From Arthrobacter agilis (GTDB taxonomy: Bacteria > Actinomycetota > Actinomycetes > Actinomycetales > Micrococcaceae): DNA of 64,000 nucleotides. The notes under the pieces were generated by a model, which was given only the letters and a program-made list of their open reading frames with translations, made no database searches and was not told the DNA's origin. Shown here one piece after another: positions 735 through 14,462 of this stretch. Made by a program: the position numbers and the translations under genes. The stretch is from assembly GCF_030816075.1 (NCBI RefSeq), contig NZ_JAUSXO010000001.1, positions 1,488,001-1,552,000 of the forward strand. Direction: 5' to 3'. Position 1 is the stretch's first letter. Each line of letters begins with the position of its first letter.

Positions 735-2273
735 ATGAGCTCGCCTCTCAGCAGTACTCCCCCCGTTCCTCCAGCAGCCCGCATGCGGACCGCTCCCCTG
801 ATCCTGGTCCTCCTCGGCGCCCTCCTCATCACGATCGCGGGCGGTATCGGTATCGGCGGTGCCACCGTGGCTGCGCTGGCCGGCCTGCAGCGTGACGGGG
901 ACTTCCTCACCAGCTCCACCGAGCGATTCTCCTTCGACTCCTACGCCCTGACGAGCAGCCAGGTGGAGGTGAACGAGGTGGACGGCGTCGAGGACCTGCC
1001 GGCCGGGCTCGCCACGCTGCGGCTGCGCGCGACGGCAGCCGATCCGGGGCAGGCAGTCTTCATCGGGGTGGCCCGTCAGGATGACGTGGACGCCTACCTG
1101 TCGTCGGTGCACCACACGGAACTGCGCGATCTCCGGACCACGCCTTTCCGCGCCGTGTACCGCGACGTGCCGGGATCCGGTGTCCCGGGCCCGCCTGCCG
1201 AGCAGGAATTCTGGACCATGTCGGCGTCGGGGACGGGGATGCAGGAGATCACGGCGGACCTGCGGGCCGGCAACTGGGCGGTCGTCATCATGAACGCCGA
1301 CGGCAGCCCTGCCGGTGCCGAGGACCTGCAGGCGGGGTTCCGGTCCACCCTGTTCGCCCCGATCGGGGTGGCGCTGCTCCTCACCGCCGTCCTGCTGCTC
1401 CTGGTCGGTATCCCCCTGGTGCTGGCCGGGGCCAGCGGCCTCGGCCGGGGGCTCGACCCTTCCCTGAGCGCCACCCGGCAGGGACGGCTGGTATCTTCCG
1501 CGGAGAGGCACCATCTGGATTCCGCGGATGCCGCACGTGACCTCCTGCCCCACCCCGCCTCGCTGAGCGGCAGCCTTCGGCCCGGGCTGTCGCGGTGGTT
1601 GTGGCTGGTGAAGTGGTTCCTGGCCCTTCCCCACGCCGTGATCCTGGTGCTGCTGTGGGTCGCCTGCTGGGTCTGCACGATCGCTGCGGGCATCGTCATC
1701 CTCTTCACCGGCCGGTACCCGGCGACGCTCTTCCCCTTCACGGTGGGCGTTCTGCGGTGGACCTGGCGGGTCCAGTTCTACAGCTCGGTCCTCGGCACGG
1801 ACAAGTACCCTCCCTTCACCCTGGCACCCGTGGATGCCTACCCGGCCGACTTCCACGTCCCGTATCCGGCACGGCTGCACCGTGGCCTGGTCCTGGTCAA
1901 AGGGTGGCTCCTGGCGCTGCCGCACCTCCTCATCCTCGCTGTGCTGACCGGTGCCTGGTCCTGGACGGCCACCGGCACCGATCCGGGCCAATTCGCCAGG
2001 ACGGCGGGTCCGTCGCTCCTGGGCATCCTGGCCCTCGTCGCCGGGGTCGCACTGCTGTTCACCGCCCGCTACCCCAGGCCGCTGTTCGACTTCGTCATGG
2101 GCATCTCCCGCTGGACCTACCGCGTGCTGGCCTACGTCCTCCTCCTGCGGGACGAGTACCCCCCGTTCCGGCTGGATCAGGGACCGGACGAGCCGGACCC
2201 GCAACCGCAGGATCCTCATACCCCCGGTCTCGTGGAGGCCGGACGACCCTCACCGGCCGGTCTGGACCGCTAG
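735..2273 (+). CDS. DUF4389 domain membrane protein (two DUF4389 units)
   Basis: 512 residues. A hydrophobic segment at about residues 19-42 anchors an extracytoplasmic region (about 55-200), followed by another hydrophobic segment near 207-235. Two copies of a DUF4389-like unit follow. Each has a pair of membrane segments and ends in a similar signature: TGRYPATLF...RWTWRV...YPPFTL in the first, TARYPRPLF...RWTYRV...YPPFRL in the second. The internal repeat is seen directly in the sequence. The function of DUF4389 is not established. ATG at 735 was chosen because AAGGATG lies just upstream; a start at 708 would add nine residues. It is monocistronic, followed by a short gap and then a convergent gene. 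Confidence 0.8.
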   Translation: MSSPLSSTPPVPPAARMRTAPLILVLLGALLITIAGGIGIGGATVAALAGLQRDGDFLTSSTERFSFDSYALTSSQVEVNEVDGVEDLPAGLATLRLRATAADPGQAVFIGVARQDDVDAYLSSVHHTELRDLRTTPFRAVYRDVPGSGVPGPPAEQEFWTMSASGTGMQEITADLRAGNWAVVIMNADGSPAGAEDLQAGFRSTLFAPIGVALLLTAVLLLLVGIPLVLAGASGLGRGLDPSLSATRQGRLVSSAERHHLDSADAARDLLPHPASLSGSLRPGLSRWLWLVKWFLALPHAVILVLLWVACWVCTIAAGIVILFTGRYPATLFPFTVGVLRWTWRVQFYSSVLGTDKYPPFTLAPVDAYPADFHVPYPARLHRGLVLVKGWLLALPHLLILAVLTGAWSWTATGTDPGQFARTAGPSLLGILALVAGVALLFTARYPRPLFDFVMGISRWTYRVLAYVLLLRDEYPPFRLDQGPDEPDPQPQDPHTPGLVEAGRPSPAGLDR

Positions 2274-5031: not shown

Positions 5032-5460
5032 ATGGACCAACAGCTGCACTTCCTCACGGTCGCGGTGCCGGACCTCGACGCCGCCCGCGCGTTCTACGCC
5101 GACGGGCTCGGCTGGACGCCGGTGGTGGACGTCCCCGACGAGGTCGTCTTCTACCAGGTGGCTCCCGGCATGCTGCTCGGGTTGTTCATCGCCCACAAGT
5201 TCGCCCAGGATCTCGGGCTCGAGACCGCGCCGGCACCCGCCGGTATCACGCTGTCCCACAACGTCGGCGGTCCGGTCGAGGTCCGCGCGGCCATCACTGC
5301 CATGACGCGCGCCGGCGGCGTCCTCCTGAAGGAGCCGCAGCACAGTGCGTTCGGCGGGATCTTCCACGCCCTCGTCCGTGATCCGAGTGGGGTGGTGTGG
5401 GAGGTGGCGCACAATCCCGGCTGGCAGATCCTCGACGACGGCACCGTCGTGCTGGGCTGA
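5032..5460 (+). CDS. VOC (glyoxalase/bleomycin-resistance) family protein
   Basis: 142 residues with two beta-alpha-beta-beta-beta modules of the vicinal oxygen chelate fold. [24 protein letters not shown] opens the first (residues about 4-27); the second begins near residue 80 and ends in [21 protein letters not shown], the usual final strand. Members bind a divalent metal and act as lyases, dioxygenases or antibiotic-binding proteins. The canonical first metal ligand position is occupied by Leu/Thr rather than a clear His, so catalysis is uncertain. ATG at 5032 has only a weak GTAGG upstream. It is a single gene; the next operon begins after a 387-bp leader. Confidence 0.85.
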
Positions 5461-5532
5461 GCGCACCCCTGCCGTCGTCATACGCTCTTCGTGCGCCGAC
5501 GGACATTTCCGCAGATGTCACATTTCTTTTTG

Positions 5533-5564
5533 TTGATCGAATATCAGGGGCTTCTGCCTATAGT
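5533..5564 (+). promoter_or_regulatory. Candidate promoter for the organosulfur operon leader
   Basis: TTGATC (5533-5538) and TATAGT (5559-5564) lie 20 bases apart in an unusually AT-rich patch. The expected transcript start near 5571 falls exactly at the first base of the riboswitch P1 stem. The spacer is a little long, so the -35 assignment is tentative. Confidence 0.5.
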
Positions 5565-5571
5565 TGTTCCA

Positions 5572-5650
5572 GCTTCAAGAGACGCGGTCGCAAAGCTCCG
5601 ACTGGACCGCGCACCAACCCCATGTTCCTGGGTGGTTCGGATGACGAAGC
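5572..5650 (+). promoter_or_regulatory. SAM-I/SAM-IV clan riboswitch (S-adenosylmethionine sensor)
   Basis: The RNA folds into the SAM-clan core. P1 pairs GCUUC (5572-5576) with GAAGC (5646-5650). J1/2 is AAGAGA. P2 is a perfect 7-bp stem (5583-5589 with 5605-5611). The P2 loop UCCGA (5597-5601) is the exact complement of J3/4 UCGGA (5637-5641), giving the clan's pseudoknot. P3 has the hallmark asymmetric internal loop: ACC-AA-CCC (5613-5620) against GGG-U-GGU (5630-5636). Only four bases separate J3/4 from the P1 right arm, so P4 is absent, as in SAM-IV and SAM-I-IV variants. A GGCAC/GUGCU hairpin follows at 5663-5675. It precedes a transporter and monooxygenase operon, consistent with repression by SAM. 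I could not run a covariance model. Confidence 0.72.
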
Positions 5651-5747
5651 GGCCTTCTCCTCGGCACTCGGTGCTGGTCCGGTGCAGGCAAGAGCACTCC
5701 GAAAGGCACTCATCGTGAGCTGTACAGCCCTCCCCTAGCCGGATCAC

Positions 5748-5792
5748 GGCGCATCGCGCCCTTTTCTCCCTTTCTCCTTTTTTCTTTTTCTT
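5748..5792 (+). terminator. Leader terminator (riboswitch expression platform)
   Basis: GGCGC-AUC-GCGCC (5748-5760) is followed at once by a long pyrimidine run (5761-5797, mostly U and C, including UUUU and UUUUUU). It lies between the SAM-type aptamer and the first gene, so it is the natural site of SAM-dependent termination. The stem is short (5 bp), and the length of the pyrimidine tract is unusual for this genome. Confidence 0.6.
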
Positions 5793-5847
5793 CCCTCCTG
5801 GCGAATTGTGCTGTGCGCTGCGCCAGAATGCACCCGAGGAATTCTTC

Positions 5848-7509
5848 ATGAATGCATCCGTACTTCGCCCTGCCCGAAATCGAAAGCTGTTCGGACAGGT
5901 CACGGCGCTGTCCGCCGTCGGCCTTCTCGCCCTGCTGACCGGCTGCGCCGGGCCGGCAGCCCCATCCTCCGCGACGAGCGGGGAGCCGGTGTCCGGCGGC
6001 ATCCTGGACGTGTCCATCTCGGCCGAGCCGGGCTGCCTCGACGGCCACGGCATCTCCGCGACACAGCAGCAGTTCCTCGGCCGCCTGATCTACGACAACG
6101 TGGTGACCCTCGACGAGAACGGGGATGTCGCGCCCTACCTGGCGGAGTCCTGGGACGTCTCGGAGGACGGCAGAACGTACACGTTCCACCTCAGGCAGGG
6201 TGTCACCTTCAGCGACGGCTCACCGTGGGACGCGGAGGTCCTCGGGCAGAACTTCGAGCACATGAGGGACCCCGCCACGAAGTCACCGCTCGCCGCCGCG
6301 TACATCGCCCCGTACGTGGACGGCACGGTGGTCGACGACTACACGTTCGAGGCCCATCTCGCCTACCCCTACACGCCCTTCCTCTACACGCTCGCGCAGT
6401 CCTGGCTCGGCATGAACTCGGGCAAGGCCATCACCGAGGCGCCGGAGACACTGTGCCAGAAGCCGGTCGGCACCGGTCCGTTCACCGTCGCCGACTACGA
6501 GCCCGGCCAGAGCATCAGCTACACCAGGCGCGAAGGGTACGACTGGGCGCCGGAATGGCTCGAGGGCGACGGCGAGGCGTACCTCGACGGCGTGGAGGTC
6601 ACCCTCGTCAGCGAACCCGTCATCCGCCACCAGTCGCTCGTCTCGGGCCAGTACGACCTGACGGAGAACCTCGCGCCGCAGAACGCCGCCGCCGTGCAGG
6701 CGGATCCGAACTTCACGTACGAGAACCTGCCCCGCACCGGCAGCCCGTACGTGCTCGGCTTCAACCTCAGCCGTGCCCCGTTCGACGACCTCGCGGTGCG
6801 GCAGGCGTTCGCGGCCGCCGTGGACACGAAGGCCGTCACGGAGAGCCTCGGCTTCGGCACCTACACGCCGATCGACAGCTTCCTGTCGAAGGAGAGCAAG
6901 TACTACGACCCGTCCGTCGAGGGCGTCCTGACCTACGACCCCGAACGGGCGAACCAGCTCCTCGACGGCGCCGGCTGGGCCGGTCGGGACGACGAGGGCT
7001 TCCGCACCAGGGACGGGAAGCGGCTGACGGTCGAGGTGCCCACGGTCGAGAGTTCGACCCCGAGCCCGCTGCTCGTGCAGCTGCAGGGAGAGGCGCGGAA
7101 GGTCGGCTTCGACGTCCGGATCATCCAGCTCCCCCAGGCCCAGTTGACCGAGCTCCGCTACGCGGGCGACTACGACGCCCTCGCCGGCGTCTGGCACACC
7201 AACACCACCGACGTCCTGTTCATCCGGTACCACTCCTCCGAGATCACGGGCGAGCGGATCGGCCAGAACTCCTCCTACGTCAACGATCCGGAACTCGACG
7301 AGCTGCTCTCCACGGCCCGTGAGGCCGACGACGGCCCCGTGGCCGAGGAGGCCTACTCGGAGGCCCAGCACCGACTGCTCGAGATCGTGCCGGGCGTGCC
7401 CCTCTACGAGAACCCGAGCCAGTTCGCCTACGCGAATACCGTCCACGACGTCGCCGTGGACACCTCCCACCCGGTGCCGGTCCTCACCTACGCCTGGAAG
7501 GCCGAGTAG
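5848..7509 (+). CDS. ABC transporter substrate-binding lipoprotein, solute-binding family 5
   Basis: 553 residues. A signal peptide ends in a lipobox (LLTGC, Cys about residue 33), so the mature protein is membrane-anchored outside the cell. The body matches the family-5 (DppA/OppA/NikA-type) solute-binding fold: GGILDVSISAEPGCLDGHG near the mature N-terminus, YLAESWDVSEDGRTYTFHLR, and a late stretch of Asn/Asp-rich segments before EEAYSEAQHRLLEIVPGVPLYE. ATG at 5848 follows CGAGGA. An earlier in-frame ATG at 5806 lacks a ribosome site and lies in leader RNA. It heads the six-gene operon. Family 5 covers peptides, nickel, glutathione and other small ligands; the monooxygenases downstream suggest an organosulfur ligand (inference). 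Confidence 0.9.
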   Translation: MNASVLRPARNRKLFGQVTALSAVGLLALLTGCAGPAAPSSATSGEPVSGGILDVSISAEPGCLDGHGISATQQQFLGRLIYDNVVTLDENGDVAPYLAESWDVSEDGRTYTFHLRQGVTFSDGSPWDAEVLGQNFEHMRDPATKSPLAAAYIAPYVDGTVVDDYTFEAHLAYPYTPFLYTLAQSWLGMNSGKAITEAPETLCQKPVGTGPFTVADYEPGQSISYTRREGYDWAPEWLEGDGEAYLDGVEVTLVSEPVIRHQSLVSGQYDLTENLAPQNAAAVQADPNFTYENLPRTGSPYVLGFNLSRAPFDDLAVRQAFAAAVDTKAVTESLGFGTYTPIDSFLSKESKYYDPSVEGVLTYDPERANQLLDGAGWAGRDDEGFRTRDGKRLTVEVPTVESSTPSPLLVQLQGEARKVGFDVRIIQLPQAQLTELRYAGDYDALAGVWHTNTTDVLFIRYHSSEITGERIGQNSSYVNDPELDELLSTAREADDGPVAEEAYSEAQHRLLEIVPGVPLYENPSQFAYANTVHDVAVDTSHPVPVLTYAWKAE

Positions 7510-8442
7510 GTGGCCGTGCTCCGACGGGTCCTCACGCGACTCGCCGTCGGCCTCGGTGTCCTCTGGGGGGCAGCGACGCTCACGTTCCTCGCGGTCTACC
7601 TGATTCCCGGCGACACGGCACTGCTGATCCTCGGCGGACCCGATGCGCGGCCCACGGCCGAGACGCTTGCGCAGGTCCGCAGCGACTACCTCCTCGACCA
7701 GCCGTTCATCGTCCAGTACGGCAGCTACCTCGGCAACCTGCTCCAGGGCGACCTCGGGCAGTCCTACAGGCTGCGCCTGCCCGTCACGGAGGCCATCGGG
7801 CAGCAGATCGGCGCGACGGCGGCGCTGGCGGCGGCCGCCGTCGTCCTCGCCCTGCCGCTGACCTTCGCGGTGGCGATCCTGTCCGCGCAGCGGGCCCCGT
7901 GGCTCCGCTCGATCGTCTCCGGGATCGAGGTGGTCCTCGCCGCGACGCCGACGTTCATCATCGGCTTCGCGCTGCTGATCGTCTTCTCGTTCACCCTGCG
8001 CTGGTTCCCCATCGGCGGGAACCAGGGGCCGGCCGCGCTGATCCTGCCGGCCCTCACCCTCGCCCTCGCGATCTTCGGCACCCTGTCGCAGGTCCTGCGG
8101 AACGAGCTCGAGGACGTCCTGGAGCAGCCGTTCATCCTGACCGCCCGGTCCCGCGGCATGCGCGATCTCCCGGTGCGGATCCGGCACGCCCTCCGGCACG
8201 CGGCCATCCCGGTCATGACCATGTCCGGGTTCGTCGTCGCCGCCCTGCTCGGCGGGTCGGTGGTCGTCGAGGCCCTCTTCAGCCGGCAGGGCATCGGATC
8301 CCTCACGCTGGCGTCGGTCTACAACAAGGACCTGCCGGTCATCATCGGGATCGTGCTCCTCTCAGCCGCGGTCTACGTCGTCGTGAATCTCGTGATCGAC
8401 CTCCTATACACGTTCATCGACCCGAAAGTGGTGACCGCATGA
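7510..8442 (+). CDS. ABC transporter permease, DppB/OppB type
   Basis: 310 residues, about six membrane helices, BPD_transp_1 fold. The N-terminus (LRRVLTRLAVGLGVLWGAATLTFLAVYLIPGD) and the coupling-helix region (ARSRGMRD about residues 214-221, followed by RIRHALRHAAIP) are typical of the first permease of family-5 importers. GTG at 7510 abuts the stop of the lipoprotein gene, so translation is probably coupled. It forms the channel with the next gene's product. Confidence 0.9.
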   Translation: MAVLRRVLTRLAVGLGVLWGAATLTFLAVYLIPGDTALLILGGPDARPTAETLAQVRSDYLLDQPFIVQYGSYLGNLLQGDLGQSYRLRLPVTEAIGQQIGATAALAAAAVVLALPLTFAVAILSAQRAPWLRSIVSGIEVVLAATPTFIIGFALLIVFSFTLRWFPIGGNQGPAALILPALTLALAIFGTLSQVLRNELEDVLEQPFILTARSRGMRDLPVRIRHALRHAAIPVMTMSGFVVAALLGGSVVVEALFSRQGIGSLTLASVYNKDLPVIIGIVLLSAAVYVVVNLVIDLLYTFIDPKVVTA

Positions 8443-9350
8443 GCATCGCCTCGCGCACCATCCCACCCGCCGTCGCCCCGCCCGCGGCGCTCCCCGCCCG
8501 AGGGACGGCCCTGGCCGGCCCCGGCCGGGTACGGCGCCGCCGGTGGCGGATCCGCCCCGGCATCCTGCTGGCCTCCGCGTTCCTCCTGTGGCTGGCCGTG
8601 GCGGTCCTGGCCCCGGGCCTCCTGGCATCCGCCGACCCGTACGCCGTGGATCCGGCCAAAAGCTTCCAGGCGCCCGGCGCCGCCGCCTGGTTCGGTACGG
8701 ACGATTCGGGTGCCGACAACTACACGCGGATCGTGCACGGTGCCGCCACGTCGCTGTACATCGGCGTCGGCGCGACGGCCATCGGCGTGATCGGCGGGAC
8801 GGCCATCGGCCTCCTCGCCGGGCTCAACGGACGATTCGTCGAGGCCTCCGTGATGCGGTTCCTCGACGTCACCCTCGCCATCCCCGAGATCCTGCTCGCG
8901 CTCGTGGTCATCGGCATCATCGGCGGCGGCACGGAGAACGCGATCCTCGCGATCGGGGCCGGCAGCATCGCCTACTACGCCCGGATCACGCGGGCGCAGG
9001 CGCACCTCGTCCGCCGGTCGGGCTACGTCGAGGCCGCCCGCACGCTCGGCCTCCCGGCCTGGCGGATCCTCCTGGCGCACACCGTGCCGAACGTCATCAA
9101 GCCCGTCCTCGTCCTCGCCACCATCGGCATCGGTTCGGCGATCGGGGCCGGCGCCTCCCTGAGCTTCCTCGGACTCGGGACACCGCCCCCCGCCCCCGAG
9201 TGGGGGGCGATGCTCTCCGCAGGCCGCAACTTCATCTCGAACGCACCCTGGATGATCACCTTCCCCGCCGCGTTCCTCGTGGCCACCGTGCTGTCCATCA
9301 CCGTGATCGGGCGCGAGCTCCGACGCCGTGCCGAAGGGAGGCTCGCATGA
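8439..9350 (+). CDS. ABC transporter permease, DppC/OppC type
   Basis: 303 residues. A Pro/Arg-rich cytoplasmic N-terminus (1-40) is followed by a first helix (ILLASAFLLWLAVAVLAPGLL), the short OppC N-terminal segment with WFGTDDSGADNYTRIVHGA, and about five further helices. The coupling loop EAARTLGLPAWRILLAHTVPN is typical. Its ATG overlaps the stop of the upstream permease (ATGA). It pairs with that permease to form the transmembrane pore. Confidence 0.9.
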   Translation: MSIASRTIPPAVAPPAALPARGTALAGPGRVRRRRWRIRPGILLASAFLLWLAVAVLAPGLLASADPYAVDPAKSFQAPGAAAWFGTDDSGADNYTRIVHGAATSLYIGVGATAIGVIGGTAIGLLAGLNGRFVEASVMRFLDVTLAIPEILLALVVIGIIGGGTENAILAIGAGSIAYYARITRAQAHLVRRSGYVEAARTLGLPAWRILLAHTVPNVIKPVLVLATIGIGSAIGAGASLSFLGLGTPPPAPEWGAMLSAGRNFISNAPWMITFPAAFLVATVLSITVIGRELRRRAEGRLA

Positions 9351-11095
9351 GCTCCACAGCCCTGACCGGCCCCACCGACTCCCCCGACTCCCCCGACTCC
9401 CCCGACGCGACGGGGGCGCTCGTGCCGGCCGCCCCCGTCGTCGAACTCGACGGACTCTCCGTGGGGTTCGGCCGCGGCGTCCACCGTCGGGAGGTCATCC
9501 ACGACCTCAGCCTGTCCATCCGGCCGGGCGAGTGCCTCGCGCTCGTCGGCGAGTCCGGATCCGGGAAATCCGTCACGGCCCGCACCCTCGTGGGACTCAC
9601 CGGTCCCGGCGCCCAGGTCCGGTCCCGCACCCAGCGCTTCAACGGCCAGGACGCCTCCACGTGGGGCGAACGCCAGTGGACCCGCATCCGAGGCAGGGAG
9701 GCAGGGTTCATCCTGCAGGACGCCCTGTCATCCCTCGACTCCCTGCGCACGGTGGGCGACGAGGTGGGAGAGGTCCTCCGCCTGCACGGCGACCTCGACC
9801 GGGGCGCCCGACGGACCCGCGTCGTCGAACTCCTCGCCTCCGTGGGCGTCCCCGATCCTGAGCTCCGGGCCGGCCAGTACCCGCACCAGTTGTCCGGCGG
9901 GCTCCGCCAGCGGGCCCTCATCGCCTCCGCGATCGCCGCGGACCCGGGCTTCCTCATCGCCGACGAACCCACGACGGCGCTGGACGCCACCATCGCGGCA
10001 CAGGTCCTCCGCCTGCTCGGCGGCCTGAAGGGCGGCAGGACGGCGATGCTCGTGGTCAGCCACGACCTCGCCGTCGTCGCGGACCTCGCCGACCGCGTCG
10101 CCGTCATGCGCGACGGCGTGATCGTCGAGGAGGGCAGCGTCGGGGCCGTCCTGCAGGACCCCCGCCACCCCTACACGCAAGGGCTGCTCGCGGCCATCCC
10201 GTCGCGGTCGTCCCGTGGACGGCGCCTCACGGTGACGGGCCGACCGGAACGCGGCGACGCGACGCCGTCCACCCCGTCCCGCGACGCGCCGAACCCGCCT
10301 GCCCCGCCTGCCCTGGCGGTCGAGGGACTCACCAAGGCCTTCCCCGGCCCCGGCGGCAGCAGTCGCACGGCGGTCGACGGCGTCTCCTTCACGCTGCCGG
10401 GAGGATCCACGCTGGGGATCGTCGGGGAGTCCGGGAGCGGCAAGAGCACTGTGGCACGCATCGCGCTGGGTGTCGAGGCACCCGACGCGGGTACCGTCCG
10501 CGTCCGCGGGCGCACGTGGGCCGAGCACCGGAGTACCCGGGACCTCGCAGCACGCCGCTCGGTGCAGATGATCTATCAGGACCCGCTGCAGTCGTTCGAT
10601 CCGCGGAAGACCGTGCGGCAGGTGATCGGACAGGCCGCCGCCGCTGCCGGCACCCCGCGGAACGCGCTGGCCGGTCGGGTCCTCGAACTGCTCGACCTCG
10701 TGGGCCTTCCGGCGGACAGGGCCCGCAGCCGTCCCCTCGAACTCTCGGGAGGCCAGCGCCAGCGCGTCGCCATCGCCCGCGCCCTGGCCGCCGAACCGGA
10801 GACCATCATCTGCGACGAGCCCGTCTCCGCGCTCGACATCACGGTGCAGGCCCGCATCCTCGACCTCCTGGCGGACCTCCAGGAGCGCTTCGGACTCAGC
10901 TACCTCTTCATCTCCCACGATCTCGGGGTGATCCAGCACGTCAGCCGTGAGGTGCTGGTGCTGAAGGACGGCGGTGTCCTCGACCACGGGTCCGTCGCCG
11001 GGGTCTTCGATAATCCCGCACACGAGTACACGCGCAGACTCATCAACGCCATCCCCGAACTCCCCGCCGCCCGGAAGGACATCCCCCGCTCATGA
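9347..11095 (+). CDS. ABC transporter double ATPase (DppD-DppF-type fusion)
   Basis: 582 residues containing two complete nucleotide-binding domains. Domain 1 (about 30-290) has Walker A GESGSGKS (68-75), signature LSGGLRQR and Walker B FLIADEPTTALD. Domain 2 (about 325-575) repeats GESGSGKS, LSGGQRQRVAIARAL and TIICDEPVSALD, and ends with the oligopeptide-transporter C-terminal extension (HEYTRRLINAIPEL). Family-5 importers often use two separate ATPases; here they are fused. The N-terminus has an in-frame 9-bp repeat coding Asp-Ser-Pro three times. Its ATG overlaps the preceding stop (ATGA). It powers uptake by the lipoprotein/permease system. Confidence 0.93.
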   Translation: MSSTALTGPTDSPDSPDSPDATGALVPAAPVVELDGLSVGFGRGVHRREVIHDLSLSIRPGECLALVGESGSGKSVTARTLVGLTGPGAQVRSRTQRFNGQDASTWGERQWTRIRGREAGFILQDALSSLDSLRTVGDEVGEVLRLHGDLDRGARRTRVVELLASVGVPDPELRAGQYPHQLSGGLRQRALIASAIAADPGFLIADEPTTALDATIAAQVLRLLGGLKGGRTAMLVVSHDLAVVADLADRVAVMRDGVIVEEGSVGAVLQDPRHPYTQGLLAAIPSRSSRGRRLTVTGRPERGDATPSTPSRDAPNPPAPPALAVEGLTKAFPGPGGSSRTAVDGVSFTLPGGSTLGIVGESGSGKSTVARIALGVEAPDAGTVRVRGRTWAEHRSTRDLAARRSVQMIYQDPLQSFDPRKTVRQVIGQAAAAAGTPRNALAGRVLELLDLVGLPADRARSRPLELSGGQRQRVAIARALAAEPETIICDEPVSALDITVQARILDLLADLQERFGLSYLFISHDLGVIQHVSREVLVLKDGGVLDHGSVAGVFDNPAHEYTRRLINAIPELPAARKDIPRS

Positions 11096-12552
11096 CACGC
11101 CAGATCGCCTTCAACCTCTTCGAGATGAACTGCGTGGGGCACATCTCCCACGGTCTCTGGGTCCACCCGGAGAACAACCGCCACCGCTTCAACGACCTCG
11201 ACTTCTGGGTGGAGACCGCGAAGCTGCTCGAGGCCGGGCTCTTCGACAGCGTCTTCCTCGCCGACGTGATCGGCACGTACGACGGGTACCGGGGCGGTCC
11301 CGAGACGGCCCTGCGCGAGGCCGTCCAGATCCCCAGCAACGATCCCCTGCTGGTCATCCCGGCGATGGCCGCCGTCACCGAACACCTGGGCTTCGCGGCC
11401 ACGTTCTCCACGACGTACGAGCCGCCGTTCGCCTTCGCGCGCCGCGCATCCACCCTCGACCACCTGACGAAGGGACGGTTCGGCTGGAACATCGTCACGT
11501 CCTACCTCCCCAACGCGGCCCGGAACTTCGGGCTGGCCGACGAGGTGGAGCACGACCAGCGCTACGCCATCGCGGACGAGTACCTCGACGTCCTGTACAA
11601 GCTGTGGGAGGGGTCCTGGGACGACGACGCGGTGATCGAGGACCGCGAGCGGCGCGTCTACACCGATCCGTCGAAGGTCCGGTACATCGACCACCGGGGC
11701 ACGCACTTCTCCGTCGCCGGGCCGCACCTGAGCGCCCCCTCCCTGCAGCGCACACCCGTCCTGTTCCAGGCGGGCAGCTCCGTCGCGGGGAAGGCGTTCG
11801 CCGCACGGCACGCCGAGGGCGTGTTCGTCGGGGGTCGGGATGCCGCGGCCTACCGGGATAACGTCGCGGACCTCCGTCGGCTGGCCGTCGCGAACGGCCG
11901 GGGCGCGGATCACATCAAGACGTTCGCGAGCGCCGTCGTCATCGTCGGCAGGACCTCCAAGGACGCCCAGCGGAAGGCGGACGAATACCGGCGCCTGTCC
12001 AGCGCCGAGGGCTACCTCGCGCACGCGGGCGGCGGGGGCATCGACCTCGCGGCGTACCGGCCGGACGAGGTGATCGACGACATCCTCGCCCGCGAGGACC
12101 GGCCCGGCCGCGACCGCCGGCCCAGCAACCGGCGCCACCCTGCGGGGACCACCGTCGGCGAGGCACTCGAGCGCATCACGCGCTTCGACCGGGGCCCCTT
12201 CGTAGCCATCGGGACCCCCACGGAGGTCGCCGACGAGATCGAGCGGTGGGTCGAGGGCACGGACCTCGACGGGTTCAACCTGCGGCAGTTCCTCACCCCG
12301 GGGACGGCCGAGGACTTCGTCGAACTCGTTGTCCCCGAACTGCAGAAGCGCGGGCTGTACCGCAGGTCGTACGAGGAATCGACGCTCCGCGAGCGCCTGT
12401 TCGGCCCCGGTACGACACGCCTCTTCGACCAGCACCCCGGTGCGCGCTACCGGAACGGCGCCAACCTCGGCGGCGAGGCTGCGACCCTCGCCGCGTCCCC
12501 GGCCGCCGGTGCTGCCGGAACGGCCGCACCCGCCAGCCCGTCCTACGCCTAG
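11092..12552 (+). CDS. FMN-dependent monooxygenase, NtaA/SnaA/DmoA (bacterial luciferase-like) family
   Basis: 486 residues, the full length of the NtaA-type subgroup. The N-terminal strand IAFNLFEMNCVGHISHGLW and the segments FDSVFLADVIGTYDGYRGG, TLDHLTKGRFGWNIVTSY and FQAGSSVAGKAFAARHAEGVFVGG are characteristic of this TIM-barrel family, which uses reduced FMN from a separate reductase to oxygenate substrates such as nitrilotriacetate, dimethyl sulfide or sulfone and EDTA. The C-terminus carries a low-complexity Ala/Pro tail (about residues 463-486). The ATG overlaps the ATPase stop (ATGA), tying the enzyme to import. No flavin reductase gene is in the operon. With a SAM-type leader, an organosulfur substrate is the best guess. 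Confidence 0.9.
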   Translation: MTRQIAFNLFEMNCVGHISHGLWVHPENNRHRFNDLDFWVETAKLLEAGLFDSVFLADVIGTYDGYRGGPETALREAVQIPSNDPLLVIPAMAAVTEHLGFAATFSTTYEPPFAFARRASTLDHLTKGRFGWNIVTSYLPNAARNFGLADEVEHDQRYAIADEYLDVLYKLWEGSWDDDAVIEDRERRVYTDPSKVRYIDHRGTHFSVAGPHLSAPSLQRTPVLFQAGSSVAGKAFAARHAEGVFVGGRDAAAYRDNVADLRRLAVANGRGADHIKTFASAVVIVGRTSKDAQRKADEYRRLSSAEGYLAHAGGGGIDLAAYRPDEVIDDILAREDRPGRDRRPSNRRHPAGTTVGEALERITRFDRGPFVAIGTPTEVADEIERWVEGTDLDGFNLRQFLTPGTAEDFVELVVPELQKRGLYRRSYEESTLRERLFGPGTTRLFDQHPGARYRNGANLGGEAATLAASPAAGAAGTAAPASPSYA

Positions 12553-12561
12553 GAGTACGCC

Positions 12562-13842
12562 ATGTCCACGACCACCATCGATCCGGCCCGGACGGGCGAC
12601 CCCGCACCGCAGGGCGTCCCACCCTCGACGGCGTCGCTCCGGGAGCGGTTCCGCCCCCTGTTCGACGCCGTCGCTGCAGGAGCGGCACGCCGGGAGCAGG
12701 ACCGCGTGCTGCCCTTCGACGAGGTGGCGGCCCTCAAGGAGGCGGGGTTCGGCGCCCTGCGCGTCCCCGTGGAGTACGGCGGGTCGGGAGCGTCACTGCG
12801 CCAGCTCTTCACCCTCCTCACCGACCTGGCCGTGGCCGATTCGAATCTCACGCAGCTGTGGCGCGGCCATTTCGCGTACGTCGAGGGGACGCTGCTCCAG
12901 CCGCCGTCGGCGCATCGGGACCGATGGCTCTTCGACATCGCGGCGGGAACGATGATCGGCAACGCCTCGAGCGAGCTCACCGGCATATCGCTGCGCGACA
13001 TCCGCACGACCCTGACCTCCCCGAGCGCCCAGGACGGCGCGCTGACGCTCACAGGCAGCAAGTACTACAGCACCGGCAGCCTGTACGCAGACTGGATCGC
13101 CGGCAGCGCGGTGCGCGACGGCGAGCGCGTCGGGTACGCGGTGCGGGCCACGGCTCCCGGCGTGGAGCGGATCGACGACTGGGACGGCTTCGGCCAGCGG
13201 CTGACCGGCAGCGGGACCACCCATTTCACGGAGGTGCGCGTGGATCCGCGGAACGTGCGCCCGTTCTCACCTGACGCACCGAGCCACGTGCCCGCGTTCT
13301 TCCAGCTGGTGCTGGTCGCATCGCTCGCCGGTATCGCCCGGGCCGCTGCGCAGGACGCGGCGGCATTCGTCCGGCCCCGCACGCGGTCCTACGTCAACGC
13401 ACCGACGCCGCTGCCGCGCGAGGACCCGCAGGTGCTGCAGGTGGTGGGTGAGCTGACCGGGCGCGCCTTCGCGGCGGACGCCGTCGTGCTGGCCGCCGCC
13501 GACCTCCTGGACTCCGCCTACGAGGCGCTCCACGCGGACCGTCCGGCGCCCGGTCGGGAGGAGGACGGCACCCCGGCGCCGAGCGCGGCCCGGCCTGCGG
13601 TCGACGCCGCCGACATCGCGGTCAGCCAGGCGCAGCTGGTCGCCGTCGACCAGGCGCTGACCGCGGCCACCCAGCTGTTCGAGGTCGGCGGGGCGTCGGC
13701 GACGTCCACCGGGCGGGCGCTGGATCGGCACTGGCGCAATGCGCGGACCATCTCCTCGCACAACCCCGCCATCTACAAGGCCCGGTCCGTGGGCCACTGG
13801 GCCGTCCACGGGGAGCGTGAACCGCAACCGGGACAGGCCTGA
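12562..13842 (+). CDS. Acyl-CoA dehydrogenase-fold flavin monooxygenase, DszC/SfnB-like
   Basis: 426 residues with the acyl-CoA dehydrogenase fold. The N-terminal helical domain includes FGALRVPVEYGGSGASLRQL. The middle beta domain has FRGNASSEL-like flavin contact (IGNASSELTG) and LTGSKYYSTGSLYADWI. The C-terminal helical bundle ends in ARTISSHNPAIYKARSVGHW. The last stretch, with His-Asn-Pro near the end and no catalytic Glu for dehydrogenation, is typical of DszC, SfnB and related flavin monooxygenases in sulfur acquisition. GGAG of the TAGGAG around the previous stop serves as ribosome site, 10 bases from the ATG. It is the last gene of the operon and probably works with the NtaA-type enzyme in sequential oxidation of one imported compound (inference). 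Confidence 0.85.
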   Translation: MSTTTIDPARTGDPAPQGVPPSTASLRERFRPLFDAVAAGAARREQDRVLPFDEVAALKEAGFGALRVPVEYGGSGASLRQLFTLLTDLAVADSNLTQLWRGHFAYVEGTLLQPPSAHRDRWLFDIAAGTMIGNASSELTGISLRDIRTTLTSPSAQDGALTLTGSKYYSTGSLYADWIAGSAVRDGERVGYAVRATAPGVERIDDWDGFGQRLTGSGTTHFTEVRVDPRNVRPFSPDAPSHVPAFFQLVLVASLAGIARAAAQDAAAFVRPRTRSYVNAPTPLPREDPQVLQVVGELTGRAFAADAVVLAAADLLDSAYEALHADRPAPGREEDGTPAPSAARPAVDAADIAVSQAQLVAVDQALTAATQLFEVGGASATSTGRALDRHWRNARTISSHNPAIYKARSVGHWAVHGEREPQPGQA

Positions 13843-13889
13843 CGCGGTCCCGAGCGTCGTGGGTGCCGGCGGGGGCTAGCGTGGGCACC

Positions 13890-14462
13890 ATGACGCATGA
13901 GTTCCGGTACGACGTCGAGATCCTGCACCTGCTCGTGTCTCCCGCGCACGCCTACTTCGGCCGTGCCCGGGACGGCGCGGCTGACGTGGCCACCACCGAC
14001 GCCGAGACGGTGGAGGTCGTGGCCGGCAAGGGGATCGTCGGTGACCGCTTCTTCGGGAAGGCGGCGCACATGGACGCGGCGGTGACCCTGTTCGCCATCG
14101 AGTCCCTCGAAGCCATCGCCGCCGGGCTCGGGGTCGCGCCCTTCGATCCGCTGCTCCCCCGCCGCAACGTGGTGCTGCGCGGCGCCGAGCTGGTTCCGCT
14201 CATCGGGCACGGGTTCGTCCTGGAGTCCGCAGGCTCGGCCGTCGCCTTCCACGGGGGCCGGCACGCCCACCCCTGCGCGTGGATGGACCGGGTCCTGGCG
14301 CCCGGCGCCCACAAGGCGATGCGTGGACGCGGTGGGCTGCGGTGCCGTCCGGTCGGCAGCGGGACCCTCCACCGCGGCCCGGCGGTGCTCGTCAGCCCCG
14401 TGGAGCTGGATCCGGCCCGAGCGGCCCACGCCTCCGTCCTGCAGCCCTCGCGCCTGCCCTGA
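13890..14462 (+). CDS. MOSC domain protein
   Basis: 190 residues. The MOSC core is visible: VEVVAGKGIVGDRFFG at about residues 43-58, AVTLFAIESLEAIA, and RRNVVLRGAELVPLIGHGFVL with the Arg-Asn-Val signature. MOSC proteins bind sulfur- or molybdenum-cofactor-related ligands and include mARC-type enzymes and sulfur carriers. The conserved Cys at PCAWMD (about residue 130) is retained. It lies 47 bases after the flavoenzyme gene and may be cotranscribed, which would fit a sulfur theme. ATG at 13890 was chosen because the domain begins right after it; an in-frame ATG at 13863 lies in the intergenic stretch. Confidence 0.82.
   Translation: MTHEFRYDVEILHLLVSPAHAYFGRARDGAADVATTDAETVEVVAGKGIVGDRFFGKAAHMDAAVTLFAIESLEAIAAGLGVAPFDPLLPRRNVVLRGAELVPLIGHGFVLESAGSAVAFHGGRHAHPCAWMDRVLAPGAHKAMRGRGGLRCRPVGSGTLHRGPAVLVSPVELDPARAAHASVLQPSRLP

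Follow-up and report, generated by a model that had tools for sequence, protein, structure and literature searches.

A divergent SAM-IV riboswitch ahead of a cysteine-containing leader ORF and an organosulfur operon in Arthrobacter agilis

A putative importer/monooxygenase operon of Arthrobacter agilis is preceded by a structured leader, which raises the question of what kind of RNA this leader is and how it might control the genes behind it. The original prediction, made by eye, had read it as a SAM-clan riboswitch acting through a terminator. Using cmscan with Rfam 15, we found a single gathering-level match in the whole window (the 64,000-nucleotide stretch analysed here, to whose positions the coordinates refer unless a contig or locus is named): SAM-IV (RF00634) at 5573-5700 on the plus strand, with 57.3 bits against a cut-off of 38 (E = 1.7e-7), covering the full length of the model (positions 1-116 of 116). 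Permissive cmscan of 5400-5950, with the best match per clan kept, revealed no further SAM family. As regards the SAM-I-IV-variant (RF01725), cmscan keeps the best clan match per site, which here is SAM-IV. A SAM-I identity was rejected, as a search of the genome with RF00162 at E ≤ 0.001 pointed to two places, neither of them here. All 12 orthologous loci scanned match SAM-IV as well, and the assignment to the SAM clan was borne out. The elements of the aptamer and of its upstream flank are as follows.

5559..5564, plus strand: candidate −10 element TATAGT (read directly; TATA-like sequence at the same place in many orthologs)
5572..5696, plus strand: SAM-IV aptamer of a divergent subtype (RF00634, 57.3 bits; pair counts in 30 relatives)
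5572-5576/5646-5650, plus strand: P1 of the aptamer
5583-5589/5605-5611, plus strand: P2 of the aptamer, 7 bp
5594-5595/5602-5603, plus strand: P2b of the aptamer
5597-5601/5637-5641, plus strand: PK1, 5 pairs between the P2 loop and the strand 3' of P3
5613-5620/5630-5636, plus strand: P3 of the aptamer, with AA/U loop
5652-5689, plus strand: P5, a hairpin 3' of P1 with two mismatches (by eye)
5623-5627/5692-5696, plus strand: PK2, UGUUC of the P3 loop with GAGCA of the 3' tail, 5 pairs including one G-U

P1, the 7-bp P2 and P3 with its AA/U loop had been recognised before, as had PK1, which was correct to the nucleotide. The absence of P4 had also been pointed out correctly, but it is no oddity: it is expected because SAM-IV as a class has no P4. 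According to a cryo-EM study (PMC6890682), SAM-IV consists of P1, P2a, P2b, P3, P5, PK-1 and PK-2, and is devoid of the P4 of SAM-I. P5 and PK2, in turn, had been overlooked. Similarly, the C-G change in P3 that had been regarded as unusual is indeed present, but is usual in the subtype to which the aptamer belongs, a low-scoring group of SAM-IV with a GGGTGG core that fits 21 of the 22 model matches fetched, themselves mostly low-scoring.

Of 149 genomes sampled from this family of bacteria, 148 contain SAM-IV, and the genome of the window has five matches. The exact core pattern of the subtype occurs in at least 120 stretches of named genomes, 118 of which were analysed as distinct sites; among 80 matches listed, most come from Arthrobacter, Glutamicibacter, Kocuria and their kin, and some from Rhodococcus and Tomitella. 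One record titled Vibrio cholerae strain 35D (L173) carries a variant SAM-IV of the Micrococcaceae type, the assembly probably being mislabelled or contaminated.

Thermodynamic folding alone did not single out the aptamer (z = 0.42; 134 of 200 shuffles fold equally well or better), and the minimum free energy structure of the leader is a different fold. The pairings were assessed by comparison, using 30 aptamers out of 49 that had passed a length filter and had fixed P1 and core. Over seven helices, 98.4% of 1005 cells are paired, so that conservation of the pairings in relatives, left to be checked by the original prediction, is now documented; when partner strands are slid, pairing falls to 34-45%. 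There are 54 double-sided changes, whereas shuffling gives 14 on average and not once in 500 trials as many as 54. Two further counts are not clearly outside the shuffles, namely, pairs with a double change (8 versus 5.7; 23 of 500 shuffles) and further pair types (24 versus 22.2; 85 of 500). Most of the covariation resides in P2, where six of seven pairs covary. PK2 is paired in 94.7% of cells and has seven double changes at its end pair, and the basal pairs of P5 are paired in 99.2%. No variation is seen in P1 and PK1 and almost none in P3, which makes these helices uninformative, because the collecting pattern and the filter largely fix them; PK1, for example, is paired in all 30 relatives, but the pattern fixes one of its strands, and this provides no evidence of covariation. 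Judging from its sequence and these comparisons, the window leader is a genuine SAM-IV riboswitch that belongs to a divergent subtype and is predicted to bind SAM. From the candidate TATAGT element, transcription would begin at or beside P1; a consensus scan gave no sigma-70 promoter.

The remaining features, downstream of the aptamer, comprise a short ORF, a gap and the operon itself.

5701..5706, plus strand: Shine-Dalgarno sequence GAAAGG preceding the leader ORF, 4 nt past PK2 (read directly; same place in orthologs)
5715..5738, plus strand: leader mini-ORF GTG AGC TGT ACA GCC CTC CCC TAG (V/M-S-C-T-A-L-P), 7 codons, with Cys at codon 3
5748..5760, plus strand: terminator-like hairpin GGCGC-AUC-GCGCC, with a U/C-rich tract to about 5797 (partly conserved)
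5798..5826, plus strand: second predicted hairpin, ahead of the first structural gene's ribosome site (folding prediction)
5848..7509, plus strand: extracellular solute-binding protein of the SBP_bac_5 family (Pfam PF00496, 277.2 bits)
7510..8442, plus strand: ABC permease of NikB/Opp type (profile matches)
8439..9350, plus strand: ABC permease of NikC/Opp type (profile matches)
9347..11095, plus strand: fused double ABC ATPase of OppD-OppF type (profile matches)
11092..12552, plus strand: NtaA/DmoA-family FMN-dependent monooxygenase (TIGR03860, 522.9 bits against a cut-off of 279.7)
12562..13842, plus strand: SfnB/DszC-like flavin oxidoreductase (TIGR04022, 282.2 bits, below the equivalog cut-off of 430.9; 129 bits with the DszC model, cut-off 850)
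13863..14462, plus strand: MOSC-domain protein (PF03473, 21.9 bits, just below the cut-off of 22.7)

The leader had been predicted to control this operon. Its position ahead of the operon was seen correctly and is common to relatives, but the cysteine-containing ORF between the two had gone unseen. The first start codon 3' of the aptamer is that of the mini-ORF, the transporter gene starting only at 5848. To put this arrangement in the context of the subtype, we turned to the 118 pattern sites. A PK2 tail is recognisable in 98 of them, 79 of which have a Shine-Dalgarno-preceded start within 45 nt. The distance from PK2 to that start is 13-25 nt in 74 of the 79 measurable loci, with a median of 18 nt; the window also has 18 nt, so that its leader start occupies the position at which the gene begins elsewhere in the subtype. 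At 87 of the 118 sites, an ORF of 45 codons or more begins at a Shine-Dalgarno-preceded start. Among these 87 first genes, 59 form one blastp cluster, with 55 complete members of 88-184 aa. This small-protein family lies directly 3' of variant SAM-IV in loci of the range L111-L229 (e.g. L129:5391-5690 and L112:5018-5281); three of its members gave no match in Pfam, and a structural model of the L129 protein (mean pLDDT 88.1) no match in the PDB at E ≤ 0.001. Very small proteins (50-77 aa) with the motif 'DY...AR.EFV.FLL' follow variant SAM-IV in L116 (minus strand), L135, L140 (minus strand), L144, L153 and L220; one of these, searched against Pfam, had no match.

How consistently the mini-ORF accompanies the operon was examined within the genus. 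Searching with the monooxygenase gave a strong match in 16 of 38 genomes. In 15 of them, the window included, the monooxygenase is at least 84% identical, and all 15 have the subtype aptamer together with a mini-ORF; the sixteenth (G162), with a monooxygenase 55% identical, has SAM-I in place of the subtype aptamer. Two further loci, L170, where the sequence stops short of the monooxygenase, and L072 of A. castelli, were added for showing the mini-ORF or the operon. In one genome (G057) the operon was pieced together from two contigs, the monooxygenase lying apart from the mini-ORF and the transporter genes. All 17 loci examined that have this aptamer plus the operon or its monooxygenase carry a mini-ORF; most of them are close relatives and the mini-ORFs were read by eye, with the choice in A. 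castelli of an ATG start (MNSCPS) over an upstream GTG (VHRTVLS) being a matter of judgement. The mini-ORFs span 6-12 codons, with length changes that keep the frame, start with GTG or ATG and use all three stops. Cysteine is kept in 16 of 17, always as a single codon, G168 (L233) having Phe instead. Changes at codon positions 1, 2 and 3 number 22, 7 and 35, and the amino acid is preserved in 24 of the 53 changed codons, both counts being pairwise and hence not independent. Two loci (L073 and L237) are without the ABC genes, and there the mini-ORF stands directly ahead of the monooxygenase.

A second case was found in another genus. Genome G080 has a canonical SAM-IV, followed by the mini-ORF MNRCPRSTS* and a homologous operon encoding a binding protein (31% identical), two permeases, an ATPase, an SfnB-like protein and a monooxygenase (60%). 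Genome G146 has the same mini-ORF with differing flanking sequence; the identity of the two mini-ORFs is weak evidence, because the whole stretch is 94% identical. Divergent SAM-IV pairs were also observed. The pair in L240 (1371-1490, minus strand, and 1636-1766, plus strand) faces a gene with a flavin reductase domain (PF01613) on one side and a cysteine mini-ORF with an ABC operon on the other; further pairs occur in L083 and L084.

The link between SAM riboswitches and such genes extends beyond this locus. For 28 genomes chosen from the 149, containing 78 TIGR03860 (NtaA/DmoA) genes that exceed the cut-off, one of them assembled from two fragments, 18 of 132 SAM-IV matches precede a same-strand TIGR03860 gene that lies at most 8 kb downstream. 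Counted as pairs there are 19, compared to 0.42 expected, distributed over 12 of the 28 genomes, while the controls yielded one pair with the gene upstream and one with the gene on the opposite strand. Outside the family, among 24 searched of the 26 SAM-IV-bearing genomes of the class, G223 is a clear case and G215 lies just past 8 kb. The genome of the window has seven SAM-IV and SAM-I matches, four of which precede organosulfur genes. Besides the present leader, these include a canonical SAM-IV ahead of another NtaA/DmoA gene and the two SAM-I places. One SAM-I (G000:C1:203415-203513, minus strand; L103:12416-12514; 50.9 bits) precedes a paralogous ABC/SfnB operon, and the other (G000:C1:3670325-3670430, minus strand; L265) stands directly ahead of sfnG, encoding dimethylsulfone monooxygenase (619.6 bits with the SfnG profile, cut-off 382.95). 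The other three matches precede genes for O-acetylhomoserine sulfhydrylase, an ABC transporter with a MetQ-like (NlpA) binding protein and an ABC transporter with a family-3 binding protein. Control of organosulfur scavenging by SAM riboswitches is thus well supported. The suggestion that the regulon extends to organosulfur uptake holds, but as a feature that recurs in other Micrococcaceae rather than one peculiar to this locus.

Several observations concern the leaders of related operons. SAM-I ahead of a homologous ABC/SfnB operon occurs also in G162 and G106. In the SAM-I at 203415-203513, a sequence complementary to the 3' strand of P1, CUCCAUCGG, was recognised by eye further downstream, an arrangement known from classical S-box switches. 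The gene behind sfnG resembles O-acetylhomoserine sulfhydrylase by eye. Homologous operons with no SAM-IV or SAM-I match were found in G035 (L044, L104) and in L045-L048 and L050 of another genus. The latter five share a conserved element shortly ahead of the binding-protein gene, with outer arms ACUGC/GCAGU, an inner hairpin CGAGGC/GCYUCG and then UUGAACACUAGCCGGUGA. It has no gathering-level Rfam match, L045 giving chance-level matches only, and its exact core is present in 7 of 295 genomes of the family, all from one genus, with the neighbourhood checked in five. The element is a candidate regulatory RNA or DNA site.

How might the aptamer, the mini-ORF and the operon work together? When SAM is plentiful, the aptamer would fold fully, with PK2 closing 4 nt ahead of the Shine-Dalgarno sequence; because PK2 ends so close to that sequence, the ligand-held aptamer would block initiation on the leader ORF (5715-5738). 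When SAM is scarce, PK2 would open and the leader would be translated. Leader translation would then govern whether transcription continues through the pyrimidine-rich, terminator-like stretch that separates the leader from the transporter gene, either by keeping Rho off or by preventing formation of the hairpin. SAM would accordingly be an OFF signal, as suggested by the biology of the class, and the operon would import an organosulfur compound and oxidatively desulfurise it. Such a gate, in which SAM-IV controls the leader ORF, with or without cysteine sensing, is in our opinion the probable arrangement. A more specific form, which we consider less likely than not, is put forward tentatively: the operon would open only at low SAM and be tuned by cysteinyl-tRNA read at codon 3, and this two-input gate would have arisen twice, with variant and with canonical SAM-IV, on the same operon type, sister operons having recruited SAM-I or another element. 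Cysteine sensing is the least secure step of the model, and counting against it, a lone Cys codon is a weaker signal than the runs of Cys found in mycobacterial leaders.

The main alternative is a plain SAM-IV riboswitch with a transcription terminator, the mini-ORF being a by-product of the Shine-Dalgarno sequence and start built into the subtype. The terminator switch of the original prediction is supported in part: the stem at 5748-5760 with its U-rich tail exists, one terminator-like site being present where shuffles predict 0.3. Among the 17 loci, each represented by its best-scoring hairpin, the hairpin starts 7-11 nt past the leader stop in nine, with varying stem sequence, and six of these nine have a U-rich tail (five or more U among the 12 nt that follow, by eye). 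The six (the window, L070, L230, L232, L233 and L234) are all close relatives, and the combination of hairpin and tail is absent from the more distant loci of this survey. The stem is thus only partly conserved, and no antiterminator was established, none complementary to P1 being seen by eye. An intrinsic terminator is possible in close relatives, and less so further out. A by-product could also account for the ORF itself to some degree, as an early stop (at most 12 codons) with an early Cys codon has a chance of 1.7-3.8% per lineage by first-order resampling. A mere by-product, however, fits poorly with Cys in 16 of 17 mini-ORFs despite frame-keeping length changes, and with the cysteine mini-ORF behind canonical SAM-IV on the homologous operon of G080. 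Taken together, we consider the plain terminator somewhat unlikely.

If leader translation does gate the operon, the geometry of the gap bears on how. A simple anti-terminator responding to cysteine starvation is disfavoured because a ribosome at the leader stop overlaps the hairpin, whereas a ribosome paused at the Cys codon does not. Protection from Rho by the paused ribosome would fit the geometry better. The gap contains more C than G in all 17 loci, a count made without control regions. Seliverstov (2005; PMC1262725) suggested Rho for the cysteine leaders of Mycobacterium, rating this a weak prediction, and for a mycobacterial Mbox, control of a uORF combined with termination by Rho has been demonstrated (PMC12810186). 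As for sequestration of the Shine-Dalgarno sequence by base pairing, folds of 11 loci, computed once with the aptamer helices imposed and once without, did not agree with each other, pseudoknots being invisible to folding.

Within the share of confidence given to gating, leader translation could drive expression with the Cys codon playing no role. Precedents in mycobacteria, namely, the Mbox-uORF-Rho system (PMC12810186) and B12 riboswitches with uORFs (PMC11260477), are in favour of this, as are the excess of C over G in the gaps and the lack of Cys in G168. Retention of Cys in the other 16 loci, and its reappearance in G080/G146, speak against it, and gating devoid of sensing appears unlikely. 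Binding of a ligand other than SAM is highly improbable: the P3 and PK1 sequences depart from the SAM-IV consensus, but the inner P1 pairs, the GAG junction and the AA/U loop match it, and some genes behind the subtype resemble O-acetylhomoserine sulfhydrylase and MetE by eye.

If the leader step of the gating model is true, a riboswitch and an amino-acid leader peptide would be joined in one short RNA, and one leader would read both ends of sulfur-amino-acid metabolism. The SAM-IV regulon is extended to scavenging of organosulfur compounds of the dimethylsulfone/DszC type in soil actinobacteria, and one operon type standing under variant SAM-IV, canonical SAM-IV or SAM-I provides a natural series for testing riboswitch exchange. 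The literature searched contains no report tying SAM-IV to monooxygenase genes or to Arthrobacter, or a SAM riboswitch to alkanesulfonate. Nor did this limited search show the combination of SAM-IV with a cysteine leader ORF. Cysteine leader peptides of Mycobacterium cys operons have reportedly been studied by Canestrari (2020).

Compared with known systems, the window aptamer shares with the actinobacterial SAM-IV (RF00634), as presented in PMC6890682, P1, P2a/P2b, P3, PK1, P5, PK2 and the lack of P4. It differs by its divergent core (CCAACCC/GGGUGG and UCCGA/UCGGA) and imperfect P5. Furthermore, in the subtype a Shine-Dalgarno sequence and start usually follow PK2 within 13-25 nt, and in the window it is a leader mini-ORF that would be translated first. 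The SAM-I (S-box, RF00162) leader of the paralogous operon also senses SAM, by its class, and serves the same ABC/SfnB operon type, but it is a riboswitch of another class, and the upstream scan listed no cysteine mini-ORF for it. The M. tuberculosis Mbox-uORF-Rho (PMC12810186) and B12 riboswitch-uORF (PMC11260477) systems likewise combine a riboswitch with a short uORF conditioning downstream expression; their ligands and aptamers are different, and the accessible portions of these papers do not present the uORFs as sensing the pathway that the riboswitch senses. The leaders of cys genes in Mycobacterium (PMC1262725) resemble the window in having a short cysteine-containing ORF ahead of sulfur genes, a pyrimidine-rich gap and suspected involvement of Rho, and translation attenuation is ascribed to the M. 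smegmatis cysteine leader in a work cited in PMC13236596. The Mycobacterium leaders, however, have runs of Cys codons, and the available text of PMC1262725 mentions no riboswitch, whereas the window has one Cys codon behind a SAM-IV riboswitch.
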